This document shows positions 319-9,246 of a stretch of 33,250 bases of DNA, one piece after another. The translations under genes and the position numbers were made by a program. Origin of the DNA: Planctomycetota bacterium. Lineage in GTDB: Bacteria; Planctomycetota; Planctomycetia; Isosphaerales; Isosphaeraceae. The notes below the pieces were generated by a model that saw only the letters and a list, made by a program, of their open reading frames with translations, did not search any database and was not told where the DNA came from. The stretch lies in NCBI GenBank assembly GCA_021808995.1, contig JAKBAP010000006.1, positions 1-33,250 of the forward strand, in the 5' to 3' direction. The first letter of the stretch is position 1. Every line of letters begins with the position of its first letter.

Positions 319-358
319 TGAGTTTTGAAATGTTGGGGGATCGCGAGGAGAGTTCAGG

Positions 359-475
359 TTGACTGGCTTGCCGGCTTCAGGAACGACTGGCTTCTATCTT
401 GACCGCGCGTGGTGGTGGTCCTGGGCGTTTACCAGGGTTATCACAGGTTGCCGGGCCGAGGGTGGAGCGCCATAG
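359..475 (+). CDS. Putative Trp/aromatic-rich leader peptide: (M)TGLPASGTTGFYLDRAWWWSWAFTRVITGCRAEGGAP
   Basis: TTG start 8 nt after GAGGAG (345-350); codons TGG TGG TGG TCC TGG at 410-424; stop TAG 473-475; lies upstream of DAHP synthase and before a T8 terminator. Absent from the supplied ORF track because it is short and TTG-initiated. Confidence 0.7.
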   Translation: MTGLPASGTTGFYLDRAWWWSWAFTRVITGCRAEGGAP

Positions 476-513
476 TCGTTCCAGACTCGTTTGATCATGC
501 CGAGAATCAAGGC

Positions 514-547
514 CCCGGAACCTGACACAAGGTTGCGGGTTTTTTTT
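514..547 (+). terminator. Intrinsic terminator (attenuator) in the DAHP synthase leader
   Basis: CCCG-G-AACCT (514-523) pairs with AGGTT-G-CGGG (530-539), immediately followed by TTTTTTTT (540-547). Confidence 0.8.
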
Positions 548-667: not shown

Positions 668-1681
668 GTGATCGTGGTCATGAAATCCGACGCAACGCCC
701 GCACAGATTGATCATATGTCGCGACATATCGCGTCCCTGGGTCTATCCCCGCAGGTGATCCATGGATCGCATCAAACGGTCATCGCCGCGATTGGCGAGG
801 AGAGCCCCGGCATGGCCGAGGCTCTGGAACCGGGCGAGGGGGTTGAGAAAGTGCTGCCGATCATGGCACCCTATAAGAGAGCGTCGTCCGAGCTCAAGCA
901 TGAGCGGACGGTGGTCAAGGCGAGGGGTCTCGAGGTCGGCGGGGTCCGGATCGCGATGATCGCGGGCCCGTGCTCGGTCGAGAGCGAGGACCAGATCGTC
1001 ACCCTGGCCAGGCGACTCAAGGCGTTGGGGGCGACGGGGCTGCGTGGCGGCGCGTTCAAGCCGCGGACCAGTCCGTACAGCTTTCAGGGGCACAAGGAGC
1101 AGGGGCTCAAGATGCTCGCGACCGCTCGGGCCGAGACGGGGCTTGCGATCGTGACCGAGGTGATGGCCCCCGAGCATGTGCCGATGGTCGCCGAATACGC
1201 CGATGTGCTCCAGATCGGCGCTCGCAACATGCAAAACTATCAGCTCCTCCAGGCGGTCGGTGATTCCGGCAAGCCGGCTTTGCTCAAGCGGGGCATGAGC
1301 GCGACGATGGACGAATTCTTACTCGCCGCCGAGTACATCCTGGACCGGGGCAACCCGAACGTGATGCTCTGCGAGCGGGGAATTCGCACCTTCGAGGATC
1401 ACACGCGGTTCACGCTTCCCTTGGCGACGATCCCATTCTTGAACGAAAAGAGCCACCTGCCGGTGGTCGTCGATCCCTCGCACGGCACGGGCAAATCACG
1501 GCTGGTCCCCGCGATGGCCAAGGCCGCCATCGCCGCCGGCGCGGACGCGCTGATCCTCGAGGTTCACGAGGATCCCGAGCACGCCGTCAGCGACGGCTCG
1601 CAGACAATCACCCCGGCGGTCTTCAAGCAGCTCATGGACGATTGCCGCCGCGTGGCGATTGCCGTCGACCGGGCGATGTGA
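668..1681 (+). CDS. aroF: 3-deoxy-7-phosphoheptulonate (DAHP) synthase
   Basis: Family motifs: [41 protein letters not shown] start at 668 with GGAGG at 653-657. The 491 ATG start in the ORF track would place the terminator inside the CDS. Confidence 0.93.
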
Positions 1682-3460: not shown

Positions 3461-5131
3461 ATGTCTTCCATCACTCTCAGCTTCCTTCTCCGCGTGTCGT
3501 CGTCGCTTGTTTTGGTACTCGGTTTGGCGAAGGCATGCGCCGCCCAGGCTGGCGAGACCGAGCGCTCTTCGATCGTGCTCAACGACGTGGCGGCCCGGGC
3601 GGGGGTTGTGTTTCGGTTTCATCATGGTTCGCGGGGCAGGCACGACCTGCCCGAGATCATGGGGGGCGGCGTGGCCCTTTTTGATGCCGATGGCGACGGC
3701 CGGCTCGACCTCTATCTCTGCGACGGCGGCCCGATTGGCGATGGCAAGGATCAGAGCGACCCTCCCTGCCGGCTCTATCGCAATCTGGGCGGGATGCGAT
3801 TCGAGGATGTCACGGATGCCGCGGGATGCCCGGGACCGAGCTACGCCATGGGCGCTGTCGCCGGCGATTACGACGGAGACGGCCGCGTCGACCTGTTCGT
3901 CACCGGCTGGCGCGGACAGCGGCTCTATCGCAATCGGGGCGGCGGCCAGTTCGAGGACGTTACGCGTCAGGCGGGTCTCGAATCGAGCCGCTGGAGCACC
4001 TCGGCGGCCTTTGCCGACCTTGACGGCGACGGCGATCTTGATCTCTACGTCGCCACATATCTGGAATACGACCCAGCGCTCGCGCCTTATTGCGCGGCTC
4101 CGGACGGCCGGCGCGATTACTGCGGGCCCGAGGATTTTCCCGCCCAGCCCGACATGCTCTATCGCAACAACGGCGACGGCACCTTCACCGACCTCGCCGC
4201 GAAGGCTGGGATCGATCAACCCCCCGGGCGCGGGCTGGGCGTGCTCGTGGCGGAGCTCACCGGCGACAATCGACCCGACGTCTTCGTCGCCAACGATGGC
4301 TCGCCGTGCCGGTTATACGCCAACCAGGGCAACCTCGCCTTCCGCGAAATCGCCCTGGAATCGGGCGTGGCGACGGACGGAAACGGCGAGGCCCTCGCCG
4401 GCATGGGGGTCGCGTTTGGCGACCTGATGGGCTCGGGCCGGCCCATGCTCATGGTCGCCAACTTCCTGGGCCGGGGAACCGTCGCGTTTGAGCAATCGCC
4501 TGGTCCAGCGGGACCATACCGCGACGTCTCCTCGGCGATCGGGCTCAAGGGCCTGACAAAAGGCATGCTGGGGTTCGGGCTCGCGATGGTCGACCTTGAT
4601 GGCGGCGGGAGCCTTGAGCTTATTCAGACGAATGGACATGTGCTCGATCGTGAGCGATTGGGAACACCGTTTCGGATGCGGCCCGTGATCGTGGGAGTGG
4701 TCGCGGGTCGTTTGGTCGCGAGGGTTTCGTGGCCCTCGGAACGGGTCCTGGGTCGAGGGCTGGCGGTCGGCGACCTCGACGGCGACGGCCGGCCCGACCT
4801 GGTCGCGGCCGCGCTCGACGCGCCCGTCGCGATCTTGCACAACGAATCGCCGGGCAAGAATCGCTTGATGCTCGAGCTCGTCGATCAGAGGGGTCTGCCC
4901 GCGTATGGCGCTCGGGTTCGGCTCACGGCGGGGGGAAGGACGCGATCGTTCGAGCTCGTCTCGGGCGGGAGCTATCTTTCGTCGTCGCCCCCCTGGCTTT
5001 CGATCGGCCTGGGCGTGGCCGAGTCGGTCGATCGCATCGAGGTCGACTGGCCCTGGGGCAAGATGGAAGCCTGGACACGGCCGAAGATTTCCCCTGACAA
5101 GCGGCTGCGGCTCACAGCCGCGGGTCAATAG
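3461..5131 (+). CDS. Secreted FG-GAP/VCBS repeat protein with C-terminal ASPIC/UnbV domain (CRTAC1-like)
   Basis: Signal peptide; repeated DxDGDGxxD motifs (LFDADGDGRLDLYL, DYDGDGRVDLFV, DLDGDGDLDLYV); C-terminal GARVRLTAGGRTRSFELVSGGSYLSSSPPWLSIGLG. Confidence 0.9.
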   Translation: MSSITLSFLLRVSSSLVLVLGLAKACAAQAGETERSSIVLNDVAARAGVVFRFHHGSRGRHDLPEIMGGGVALFDADGDGRLDLYLCDGGPIGDGKDQSDPPCRLYRNLGGMRFEDVTDAAGCPGPSYAMGAVAGDYDGDGRVDLFVTGWRGQRLYRNRGGGQFEDVTRQAGLESSRWSTSAAFADLDGDGDLDLYVATYLEYDPALAPYCAAPDGRRDYCGPEDFPAQPDMLYRNNGDGTFTDLAAKAGIDQPPGRGLGVLVAELTGDNRPDVFVANDGSPCRLYANQGNLAFREIALESGVATDGNGEALAGMGVAFGDLMGSGRPMLMVANFLGRGTVAFEQSPGPAGPYRDVSSAIGLKGLTKGMLGFGLAMVDLDGGGSLELIQTNGHVLDRERLGTPFRMRPVIVGVVAGRLVARVSWPSERVLGRGLAVGDLDGDGRPDLVAAALDAPVAILHNESPGKNRLMLELVDQRGLPAYGARVRLTAGGRTRSFELVSGGSYLSSSPPWLSIGLGVAESVDRIEVDWPWGKMEAWTRPKISPDKRLRLTAAGQ

Positions 5132-7718
5132 GTTCGCTTTCAAGCGCCAAGACGCCAAAGACGCACTCGTGGACCCGTCTCAGGGGCTCGCGGCGAACGA
5201 ATCGCTCGAGCCCTTCGATTCCAAGGGCGAATTCACCAAGAGCCAACGAGCGTTTGCGAGACAGGCCGCGCGCGCGGAGGCGCGACAGATGCTCATGCGT
5301 CGTGTATTCGGGGCCATAAATGATCCGCAGATACTCGCGACCGCGGCACTTGAGAGCCGGTTGAGAGAGCCCCCGTGCGCCCTTGTGCAGGAACGACAGC
5401 GGCTTGACCACCATCCCCTCGCCGCCGTTGCCGGTGAGCTCGTCCCACCAGGCGACGCCCGCTTCCTGGCTGGCGGGATCGGTGACGTCGACGAGCTGGT
5501 ACGGGGTCGAGCGTAGAAGCTCGGGGGCGGCCTTGCAGACCTCGGCCAGCGTGTCCATGTGCCAGGCGTGGTCCTTATCGGTATGGACGCGGCCCTCGGT
5601 CGCGAGCAGATGGAACGGCGCGAGCTTGTAACCAGCGAGCGAGTCGACCGGCCAGCAATAGCGCCTGTAGGCGGCCGTGAAGAGCGCCACGTCGGTTTCG
5701 CGGCGGCGATGATCGGCCGCGATTTGAAGCGCGTTTTCGCGGTCGCCCCCTTCGAGCCGGCCGGCCGCTTGCTCGAGCGCGGCGACCGCGCGGGGCAGGG
5801 CGGCCGCCCCTGCCGCGGCGACGGCGGCATATTGCGAGCGCAACAGCTCCTGGGCCTTGGCAGACCAGGGCATGAGCTCACAGTCCAGGCACGCCCACGA
5901 CGTCTCCAGCCGGCCCCAGAGATCGACGGCGCTCAGGGCCGAGCGCACGCGCTCATGGAATTGCCGATCGAGGTCGAGATCATTGAAGAATCGTCTTCCC
6001 GTGCGGGTATAGACGACGCCGGTCTCGCCGGTGTCGACGCCGAACCGTTCGCGCGCGGCGGCCTGATCGCGGCAGGCGATCACGATGGCGCGCGAGCCCA
6101 TGTGCTTTTCCTCGCAGATCACCCGGGGAGCGCCCTTGCCGCGGTAATAGGCGAAGGCCTCGGCCGGGTGCTCGAGCAGGCTCTCGGATCGGGACGTCTC
6201 ACACGGCGACATCGTCGGCGGCAGATAGATCAGCCACCGGGGATCGGCGGCGAAGCGGCTCATCACCTCGAGCGCGGCCGCGGCGTTTTCCTCGCGCACC
6301 GTCACCTTGCCACGCAGTGTGGTCGTGATCAACCGCTTGCCGATCACGTCCTGGGCGTCCAGGAGCGAGTCGTGGGCCTGCTGCGCGGAAAGGGCCTGCG
6401 CCTGACTTTCGACGGGCAAAAACGGCCGCGCCGGCTCGCAATAGGTCCGCGCCGCCGCGATCGACACGAACGCGCGCTCGGGATACCGGAGCGCCGTCAG
6501 CCGGCCGCCAAAGACGCAGCCAGTGTCGATGTTGACGGTATTGTTGAGCCACCGCGGCTCGGGGACCGGCGTGTGGCCGTAAACCACCATCGCCTGTCCC
6601 CGGTACGCGCTCGCCCAATCGTAACGGACGGGCAGCCCGAAATCGTCGGTCTCGCCGGTCGTCTCGCCATAAAGCGCGAATTCGCGCACCTGGCCCGAGC
6701 CCCGGCCTTGCATTTCTTCCTTCATGCCGGCGTGCGCGACGACCAGTTTACCGCCGTCGAGAACGTAATGGCTCACCATGGCGTCCAGGAACTCGGCCAG
6801 ATCGCGGGTCAATGAGTCCCGGATGTCGGCCGGCAAGGCGTCGATCTCGGCCAGGGTCTCGGCCAGCCCGTGGGCAATCCGGATATCCTTGCCCTGGAGC
6901 TTCCGCATGAGCTTCATGTCGTGGTTGCCAGGAACACAGAGCGCGGAGCCGGCCACGACCATGTTTCGCACGATCCTGACCGCGTCCAGCACCCGAGGCC
7001 CGCGATCGACCAGGTCCCCCACGAAAACCGCCATTCGACCGTCCGGGTGCGCGTAAACGGGACCGCCGGAGAGTGACCGATCATCAGGATTCGCAATCGT
7101 GCATACATAGCCGAGGACGCGGAGCAGCTCCTCGAGCTCGTCGGTACAGCCGTGGACGTCGCCGATCAGGTCAAAGGGTCCGCGTAGGTCGCTCTTGTCG
7201 TTCCAGAGTGGCACCCGCTCGACCGTGGCGGCGTCGATCTCGTCGGGATTCACGAGCGTGTAGACCTGGCGGAATCCTTCCCGGCCGAGATTCCGCGTCG
7301 ACTGCCGCAGCCGCGACTTCTGATTGCGGACCACGTGGGGGCCGAAATCCCGATCGGGCCGGGCATCGTTTCGTTCGCGGCAGACGCGCTCGGGGACGTC
7401 GAGCACGATGGCGACCGGCAAACAGTGGTATTCCCTTGCCAGCTCCACCAGGGGTTTTCGCGCCTCGGGCTGGACGCTAGTGGCATCGACCACGGTCAGC
7501 CGGCCCAACGCCAGCCGCTTGCCGGCGATCACGCGCAGGAGCTCAAACGCGTCATTCGTGACCGTCTGGTCGTTTTCGTCGTCGGCGAGCATGGCCCGGC
7601 ACATGTCGGACGAGACGATCTCGGTCGGCTTGAAATGCCTGCGCGCGAACGTGCTCTTGCCCGATCCGCTTGGGCCGATCATGACGACGAGGCTAAGCTT
7701 GGGTATTGTGATTTTCAT
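5112..7718 (-). CDS. pnkp: Bacterial polynucleotide kinase-phosphatase-adenylyltransferase (RNA repair Pnkp)
   Basis: 868 aa; kinase P-loop GPSGSGKSTFARRHF; metallophosphatase GDVHG...GDLVDRGP...GNHD...H; ligase-like EEKHMGSRAIV. C-terminus CVFGVLALESEPIDPRL. Confidence 0.93.
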   Translation of the reverse strand: MKITIPKLSLVVMIGPSGSGKSTFARRHFKPTEIVSSDMCRAMLADDENDQTVTNDAFELLRVIAGKRLALGRLTVVDATSVQPEARKPLVELAREYHCLPVAIVLDVPERVCRERNDARPDRDFGPHVVRNQKSRLRQSTRNLGREGFRQVYTLVNPDEIDAATVERVPLWNDKSDLRGPFDLIGDVHGCTDELEELLRVLGYVCTIANPDDRSLSGGPVYAHPDGRMAVFVGDLVDRGPRVLDAVRIVRNMVVAGSALCVPGNHDMKLMRKLQGKDIRIAHGLAETLAEIDALPADIRDSLTRDLAEFLDAMVSHYVLDGGKLVVAHAGMKEEMQGRGSGQVREFALYGETTGETDDFGLPVRYDWASAYRGQAMVVYGHTPVPEPRWLNNTVNIDTGCVFGGRLTALRYPERAFVSIAAARTYCEPARPFLPVESQAQALSAQQAHDSLLDAQDVIGKRLITTTLRGKVTVREENAAAALEVMSRFAADPRWLIYLPPTMSPCETSRSESLLEHPAEAFAYYRGKGAPRVICEEKHMGSRAIVIACRDQAAARERFGVDTGETGVVYTRTGRRFFNDLDLDRQFHERVRSALSAVDLWGRLETSWACLDCELMPWSAKAQELLRSQYAAVAAAGAAALPRAVAALEQAAGRLEGGDRENALQIAADHRRRETDVALFTAAYRRYCWPVDSLAGYKLAPFHLLATEGRVHTDKDHAWHMDTLAEVCKAAPELLRSTPYQLVDVTDPASQEAGVAWWDELTGNGGEGMVVKPLSFLHKGARGLSQPALKCRGREYLRIIYGPEYTTHEHLSRLRARGLSRKRSLALGEFALGIEGLERFVRREPLRRVHECVFGVLALESEPIDPRL

Positions 7719-7720
7719 GT

Positions 7721-9127
7721 CTATTGTATCACGGATCCGTCGCGGGTGAAGACTCCCATCTGGGTCGGCGAGCCCAGGGGTTCCCGCTCAGGACCGACGC
7801 CCAGGAACCGAACGGCGTAACCGAACCTCGCTGCGACGGCGAGAGCCCAGGCTTGAAACTCGGCCCGGGTCCATTCGAAGCGATGGTCGGGGTGCCGGAA
7901 TCGTGCTTCCCCGACCCTTTCCCAGACCACGTTGTATTCGCGGTTGGGGGTGGTCAACACGATTGTACCGGGCCGGGCAAACTCGAAGAGCACGCGCTCG
8001 AGCGCGGCCAGGCGGGGCGGGTCGAGATGCTCGACAACCTCGACCAGGGCGGCGGCGTCATAGCCTTCCAGACGCTGGTCGCGATACATGAGCGACCCGT
8101 GCAACAGCCGCGCGCGGGCCGCTTGACGCTCGGGCAGCCGGTCGAGACGCAGCCTGTCGCGCGCGATCTCAAGCGCGCGAATCGAGACGTCGACGCCCAC
8201 GATCTCGTCGAATTGCTTGTCCTTGATCAGCTCTCTCAAGAGCCGCCCCTCCCCGCAACCCAGGTCGAGCACCCGGCGGGCCGCGCTCGCGCGGAGCGCC
8301 GCCATGACAGCCCCAATTCGTTCCTCGTTCAGCCTGAGCGGCCCCTCGACCGCCTCCTCCCGAAGGGCGATGGCCTTTTCAGAAATCTCGCCCGAGTCGT
8401 CTTCCTCGGCCAGCCGCTCGAGCGCCTCGCGAAACAGGCTAGGGCGGAACTTCAGGTAGCGGCGCGTGATCTCGTCCTTTTCGGGGTGACTGGCCAGCCA
8501 GCCTTCGCCCTTGGCCAGCAGCTTTTCCATCTCTTCCTCGCCCACGAAGTAGTGTTTTTGATTGTCGAAGACAGGGATCAGCACATAAAGCTGCGCGAGC
8601 AGCTCGGCGAGGGTGGTGGTCTTGCCCACGGTCACGGCGTAGTAGGGGCTTTCGCCCCACTCGGGGAAAGTCTCGTCGAGCGGATGTCGAGTGGCCGTGA
8701 GGGTGTAGCCAAGGGGCTCGAAGACAGCCCTGAGGAACCGCTCGCCACCGCGCACGGGAAGGACGTCGATCCGAGCCTCGAGCGGGATCGGGGTGGTCGC
8801 AAGCTCGGGACGATCCTCGCATCGGCCGTTCATGGCCGAGCCCCAGACACGCGAGATGGCGACGCTCAGAAACGACGTCGCGGCGTACGGTCGGTCGTTG
8901 ACATACTGGGCGAGCGGGCCATCCTCGGAACCCTTGCCGCGAACCAGCCCAATCGGGTCGACATCGAGCAACAGGCAAGCCGTGCAGCGATTCGCGGCCG
9001 CCTCGGGATAAAACACATGGGCCTTGCCAAAGCTCAGTTCGTACGTTTGCAATCGGTCCGGGTGCTTGTGCAGCAGGTAACCCAGGTCGGTGGCGGGCTC
9101 GATCGTGGTGGTGATGGAGAGGAGCAT
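7721..9127 (-). CDS. hen1: 3'-terminal RNA ribose 2'-O-methyltransferase Hen1
   Basis: N-terminus MLLSITTTIEPATDLGYLLHKHP; C-terminal SAM-methyltransferase VLDLGCGEGRLL and EVVEHLDPPRL motifs; stop 2 nt before the pnkp start. ORF track extends to 9145; the internal Met at 9127 is preferred. Confidence 0.92.
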   Translation of the reverse strand: MLLSITTTIEPATDLGYLLHKHPDRLQTYELSFGKAHVFYPEAAANRCTACLLLDVDPIGLVRGKGSEDGPLAQYVNDRPYAATSFLSVAISRVWGSAMNGRCEDRPELATTPIPLEARIDVLPVRGGERFLRAVFEPLGYTLTATRHPLDETFPEWGESPYYAVTVGKTTTLAELLAQLYVLIPVFDNQKHYFVGEEEMEKLLAKGEGWLASHPEKDEITRRYLKFRPSLFREALERLAEEDDSGEISEKAIALREEAVEGPLRLNEERIGAVMAALRASAARRVLDLGCGEGRLLRELIKDKQFDEIVGVDVSIRALEIARDRLRLDRLPERQAARARLLHGSLMYRDQRLEGYDAAALVEVVEHLDPPRLAALERVLFEFARPGTIVLTTPNREYNVVWERVGEARFRHPDHRFEWTRAEFQAWALAVAARFGYAVRFLGVGPEREPLGSPTQMGVFTRDGSVIQ

Positions 9128-9246
9128 GAATCGGTCTCGCGACAATCCCTGGCGACTGAGCCATTCATCATAACCTCACCACGACACCCGGCCACCAGGC
9201 GAAGTTCGCGGTTGGCCCCAAATGGCGAAGGACGGTCCACGAGATT

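Follow-up and report, generated by a model that had tools for sequence, protein, structure and literature searches.

A predicted leader-peptide attenuator for aromatic amino acids upstream of the DAHP synthase gene aroF in Planctomycetota

Introduction

The locus studied here raises the question whether the short region ahead of a DAHP synthase gene in an Isosphaeraceae genome (GCA_021808995.1, contig JAKBAP010000006.1) is a transcription attenuator, and which amino acids such a device would read. The region belongs to a stretch of 33,250 nucleotides that was analysed as a whole and is called the window in the following. An initial annotation had described it as a complete tryptophan-type attenuator with the architecture of the E. 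coli trp leader, and had regarded this kind of control as unusual for the entry enzyme of a pathway. Our analysis indicates that positions 359-547 very probably control the DAHP synthase gene by ribosome-mediated transcription attenuation. From sequence comparisons and folding models, this device is predicted to monitor the charging of aromatic tRNAs, in Isosphaeraceae above all that of Trp and in addition those of Phe and Tyr.

Results

Anatomy of the aroF leader

The leader and the gene that it would regulate comprise the following features:

345-350, plus strand: Shine-Dalgarno-like GAGGAG, read in the sequence, 8 nt 5' of the TTG at 359
359-475, plus strand: leader peptide ORF of 38 codons, MTGLPASGTTGFYLDRAWWWSWAFTRVITGCRAEGGAP, with TTG start at 359 and TAG stop at 473-475
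392-430, plus strand: aromatic control region with TTC TAT (392-397), TGG TGG TGG TCC TGG (410-424) and TTT (428-430)
412-424 with 432-444, plus strand: hairpin A, the 1:2 hairpin of the initial annotation, from the minimum-energy fold; its 5' arm overlaps the Trp codons
444-457, plus strand: segment 2, the 5' strand of the antiterminator, CAGGTTGCCGGGCC, within the leader ORF, 16-29 nt 5' of the stop codon
511-524, plus strand: segment 3, the 3' strand of the antiterminator together with the 5' arm of the terminator, GGCCCCGGAACCTG, complementary to segment 2
514-547, plus strand: intrinsic terminator with arms CCCGGAACC (514-522) and GGTTGCGGG (531-539) and T8 (540-547), recognised by sequence, covariation and covariance-model match
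668-1681, plus strand: DAHP synthase gene aroF (type I beta; ferredoxin-like domain at the N-terminus), starting with GTG and preceded by GGAGGA (653-658)

The short ORF with its TTG start, the GAGGAG motif and the WWWSW codons between Phe and Tyr codons were found where the initial annotation had placed them, as was the hairpin at 514-539 followed by T8, which moreover covaries in relatives. An ORF rich in the product amino acids, a terminator between this ORF and the gene, and an antiterminator competing for the 5' arm of the terminator are the marks of an attenuator, and all three are present in the sequence. Segments 2 and 3 of the window form an inverted repeat (14 nt, 86%), and the antiterminator 444-457:511-524 amounts to 11-13 bp; the pairing, for which 11 bp had been claimed, is hence real and extends to 13 bp. 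The terminator hairpin has a calculated stability of about -15 to -16 kcal/mol. Hairpin A consists of 13 pairs in the minimum-energy fold (z = -2.7 compared with shuffles) and its core covaries, which bears out the proposed pairing of GTGGT...CCTGG with CCAGG...ATCAC. On both strands of the 33-kb window five hairpins with a T-run were detected, and only the one in the aroF leader has an aromatic-rich ORF 5' of it; the ORFs ahead of the remaining four contain at most 3 aromatic residues per 12 codons.

The assignment of the regulated gene is supported by matches of its product to PF00793 (DAHP_synth_1; 2e-74) and PF18152 (ferredoxin-like regulatory domain; 1e-19), by TIGR01361 and NF006421, both over the cut-off, and by the similarity to the T. 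maritima DAHPS 1rzm (9e-91), which places it in the Thermotoga type.

Conservation of the leader in aroF orthologues

The sequences 5' of 102 distinct Planctomycetia aroF orthologues were compared, and 88 of them carry a GCCCC/GCCCT terminator with a short ORF ahead of it. Two other leaders outside these 88 (L034, L108) also contain the aromatic ORF, their terminator having been missed or misplaced by the filter. At least five Phe, Tyr or Trp residues per 12 codons occur in the leader frame of 83 of the 88 leaders, compared with 0/88 and 6/88 for the remaining two frames. In the densest 12 codons the leader frame contains on average 6.5 aromatic residues, the other frames 1.6 and 2.6 and the opposite strand 2.3. 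The counts of the leader frame are inflated because, close to each terminator, the ORF richest in aromatic codons was picked for scoring; the contrast between the frames is too large to be explained by this choice of ORF alone. Examples are the leader peptides of Bythopirellula (MQSTYGYFWFSSTRYFFFTRGGGAGGNA), L099 (MRNYFYTYFWFFFSLRGRRAGGGI) and L022 (LFSYRGWWWYPVFTGSTTSGRRAEGGI). Conservation of the leader, which the initial annotation had named as a check, is given for the aromatic ORF; Trp codons are missing from 11 of the 59 leaders outside Isosphaeraceae. In other classes of the phylum, an aromatic ORF plus terminator was found at 9 of the 14 best aroF orthologues (55-60% identical; 20 loci fetched), and a leader peptide from one of these classes (L222) reads CYWVFYYFKYYYKRGGY.

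Among 20 aroF paralogues from the Planctomycetia genomes, 19 lack the aromatic leader, and so do the upstream regions of all 28 scored trpE genes (28/28; the sample comprised 30 loci, with L176 left unscored and L173 possibly scored on the wrong ORF). One divergent extra aroF paralogue (L068, G016:C323) has an aromatic leader ORF of its own, YFSSFRFWFRYG, followed by a terminator; perhaps it was acquired together with its attenuator. In the genus g6 (L030-L032) the leader peptide has been lost and the terminator kept. At L029, L037, L038, L044, L087, L088, L121 and L127 no leader was recognised, it being either lost or present in unrecognised form.

Covariation and co-evolution of the RNA pairings

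Covariation in orthologous leaders, likewise proposed in the initial annotation as a check of its structures, was analysed with 25 Isosphaeraceae leaders. For hairpin A and the antiterminator, 90% of the cells are paired, changes on both sides occur at 7 pairs, and the covariation score exceeds that of 500/500 shuffles and of all slid controls; in the core of hairpin A alone, both sides have changed at 4 of 5 pairs, and the terminator gave a similar result.

When segment 2 was compared with shuffled versions of single leaders, p <= 0.05 was reached in just 39 of 88 cases, the test having weak power in GC-rich sequence. For this reason a swap test was adopted, in which every segment 2 was paired with its own terminator arm and with those of other leaders. 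The own arm was clearly better than the swapped ones (z = -8.9 for the 59 leaders outside Isosphaeraceae, -3.7 for the 29 within), compared with z = 0.5 for a control segment, which indicates co-evolution of the two strands of the antiterminator. Moreover, in 79/88 leaders the best complement of the terminator arm falls within the final 50 nt of the ORF.

A covariance model trained on 25 relatives, the window among them, found a single place in the genome of the window, at 410-547 (E = 4e-23, with the window in the training set). Of the 45 genomes that represented the order, 35 gave a match, at one place each, including genomes outside the training set with E-values down to 1e-25; one genome showed a second, weak match that overlaps the first on the opposite strand. 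All four inspected matches outside the training set (4/4) are located immediately 5' of aroF. Judged from these comparisons, the attenuator anatomy upstream of aroF is not a product of chance, and the central proposal of the initial annotation, a leader-peptide attenuator of DAHP synthase, is upheld by the Pfam domains of the gene product together with the conserved and covarying antiterminator and terminator.

Ribosome position and alternative pairing

Equilibrium folding turned out to be uninformative as a test of the switch, because the terminator is favoured in most leaders whatever the position of the ribosome, and likewise in E. coli trpL. Hence, the switch must be kinetic, and equilibrium folding was replaced by truncated co-transcriptional folding. 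In this walk the transcript was cut just 5' of the terminator 3' arm, mimicking the moment of decision, and the ribosome footprint was assumed to reach roughly 12 nt past the A-site codon, so that all values are model calculations. In the window, the calculated pairing of segment 2 with segment 3 was 0.83-0.90 with the front edge of the ribosome anywhere between 383 and 443, and 0.00 from 461 on, which corresponds to the stop-codon position. Over the 88 leaders the antiterminator reached a mean of 0.73 with a stalled ribosome versus 0.22 with a ribosome at the stop codon, the stalled value being higher in 88/88 leaders, and the same walk with E. coli trpL gave 0.62 versus 0.00. Without any ribosome the mean over the 88 leaders was 0.65, the window attaining only 0.12, via long-range pairing.

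These calculations suggest how the leader could work. With plentiful aromatic aminoacyl-tRNAs, the ribosome would get to the stop codon at 473-475 and mask segment 2; because segment 2 is covered, the newly made segment 3 would fold as terminator, and transcription would end before aroF. If one aromatic aminoacyl-tRNA is scarce, the ribosome would wait in the aromatic codons 392-430, leaving segment 2 free to capture the nascent segment 3, and RNA polymerase would read through into aroF. We thereby infer that the leader ORF is translated, that transcription terminates prematurely, and that this termination responds to amino acids.

The initial annotation had assumed the 1:2/2:3/3:4 scheme of the E. 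coli trp leader. Its antiterminator and terminator were recovered. For the competition of hairpin 1:2 with segment 2 the picture is mixed, as the hairpin covaries and the window is blocked in the absence of a ribosome (0.12), but most relatives are not (mean 0.65). Hairpin A ends at base 444, the only base that it shares with segment 2, so the two are nearly compatible, and it does not appear to be a general competitor since most relatives form the antiterminator without a ribosome. In the models, masking by the ribosome at the stop codon would be the more general switch, and hairpin A may serve as a polymerase pause signal.

Amino acids read by the leader

Phe, Tyr and Trp occur together within 14 codons in 69 of the 88 leaders. 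The 29 Isosphaeraceae leaders contain per 14 codons 2.7 Trp, 2.1 Phe and 1.4 Tyr, and Trp, the commonest, is present in 29/29, Phe in 27/29 and Tyr in 26/29 of them. Outside Isosphaeraceae (59 leaders) Phe dominates, with 3.9 Phe, 2.0 Tyr and 1.1 Trp per 14 codons. Control codons for Trp only, as expected of a Trp-specific attenuator, were hence not observed, and the term tryptophan-type proved too narrow.

One could nevertheless think of an attenuator that reads Trp alone and follows the E. coli trp scheme throughout, hairpin 1:2 blocking 2:3 unless the ribosome is stalled. In the window, four out of five consecutive codons specify Trp and the antiterminator value without ribosome is low, and Trp is the commonest aromatic residue of the Isosphaeraceae leaders. 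We regard this reading as unlikely, because nearly all Isosphaeraceae leaders contain Phe and Tyr as well, Phe prevails and Trp can be missing altogether outside this family, hairpin A stops at the start of segment 2 and does not block it in most relatives, and in the walk of the window a ribosome stalled at TTC/TAT (392-397) leaves segment 2 about as accessible as one stalled at the Trp codons. Since the leaders of relatives mix the three residues, an aromatic sensor appears to be the better reading of the sequences. A device that senses the tRNAs of Phe, Tyr and Trp alike suits a gene located where their shared pathway begins, and each of the three amino acids would then act as a signal.

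Control by translation, by Rho or by a conserved arrest peptide, instead of codon-dependent stalling, might be suspected from the hydrophobic nature of the leader peptide and its conserved C-terminal part G-R-x-A-x-G-G (GRRAEGG or GRGAGGG). However, these residues are encoded by RNA segment 2, which accounts for their conservation, the aromatic residues change freely in order and identity at maintained density, unlike in an arrest peptide, and ORF and gene are separated by a strong intrinsic terminator, all of which makes this explanation very improbable. It is hardly credible that the terminator simply closes an upstream unit, with a coincidental ORF and complementarity and with an aroF promoter 3' of it, for although another conserved RNA element is located upstream, as is a strong hairpin (277-312), this would leave the frame-specific aromatic codons, the co-evolving antiterminator and its fixed position before the stop codon unexplained, and a sigma-70 consensus scan, which found no sites at all, gave none between terminator and gene.

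Upstream RNA element and neighbouring genes

In Isosphaeraceae, a highly conserved single-copy RNA of approximately 200 nt is located upstream of aroF (window about 45-244). It holds a 14-nt sequence, GAAAGGAGGTGATC, at 163-176 that matches the complement of the 16S rRNA 3' end, downstream of it a conserved ORF of 10 codons at 179-211 (MCSENQGRLA), and a hairpin. A promoter-like TTGATC-17-TAGACT at 11-39 was seen by alignment alone (L002-L032). A weak similarity to the Caulobacter sRNA CC2171 falls in this element, not in the attenuator. Between the element and the leader ORF, a 17-bp hairpin with a T-poor tail (277-312) could be a first terminator, and similar hairpins, GGCCTGGTCT, were seen in some relatives. 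In the genus g6 (L030-L032) aroF follows immediately after the element and a terminator (L032: GGGCGGGCCTGA...), which leaves hardly any space for a further promoter and suggests that the element itself belongs to the aroF leader. It is conceivable, though doubtful, that the Isosphaeraceae leader is a tandem regulator, in which the upstream RNA with its own promoter is co-transcribed with the attenuator and adds a second signal, one of translation capacity, to the expression of DAHP synthase. On the minus strand of the window, 5112-9145 harbours an RNA-repair gene pair for bacterial Pnkp (868 aa) and Hen1 (474 aa).

Discussion

What the sequences show are the parts of the predicted aroF attenuator, the way these are conserved and covary, and the alternative pairing. 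The attenuator would control the committed step of the shikimate pathway, where one short peptide would read three end products, and the trpE genes of the same genomes contrast with this in showing no such leader. With dozens of independent leaders, Trp-rich or Phe-rich, comparison can test the design rules behind a multi-amino-acid attenuator, and the leader might offer a ready sensor for aromatic starvation.

No match at the gathering threshold was obtained in Rfam for the window and 12 relatives, and no leader family at E <= 1. In the open literature, as distinct from subscription papers, no planctomycete attenuator was found. Hence, the aroF attenuator seems to represent an undescribed family of the classical kind that occurs across several classes of the phylum, and seemingly the first leader-peptide attenuator family described for Planctomycetota.

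Among known systems, E. coli trpL (Rfam Trp_leader RF00513) is similar in its leader ORF with tandem Trp codons, its intrinsic terminator, its alternative antiterminator and its stall/stop pattern in silico. In contrast to trpL, the planctomycete leader precedes DAHP synthase instead of trpE, mixes Trp, Phe and Tyr, has a hairpin 1:2 that abuts segment 2 without overlap, and lacks an Rfam match. The sensing of several amino acids of a shared pathway by a single leader peptide is known from the E. coli ilvGMEDA and thr leaders; those are proteobacterial and respond to branched-chain amino acids or Thr/Ile, whereas the planctomycete leader is aromatic.

With an aromatic sensor at aroF, attenuation of the entry enzyme is therefore not as odd as the initial annotation had supposed, and there are precedents in Corynebacterium and Acholeplasma. 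For aroR-aroF of C. glutamicum, attenuation of DAHP synthase via Phe-Tyr-Phe codons has been reported (Neshat et al. 2014, as cited in PMC11802643 and PMC4046766), with a response to limitation of Phe and not of Tyr and with no Trp codons reported. Leader-peptide attenuation of DAHP synthase is thus common to both systems; by this description the one of the Actinobacterium differs in reading Phe-Tyr-Phe only. The uORFC-13-1 motif of Acholeplasma, a uORF plus terminator upstream of aroF with predicted attenuation, is by its description restricted to Acholeplasma and environmental sequences and to Phe (U run) only (PMC8632094), which sets the planctomycete leaders apart from it.
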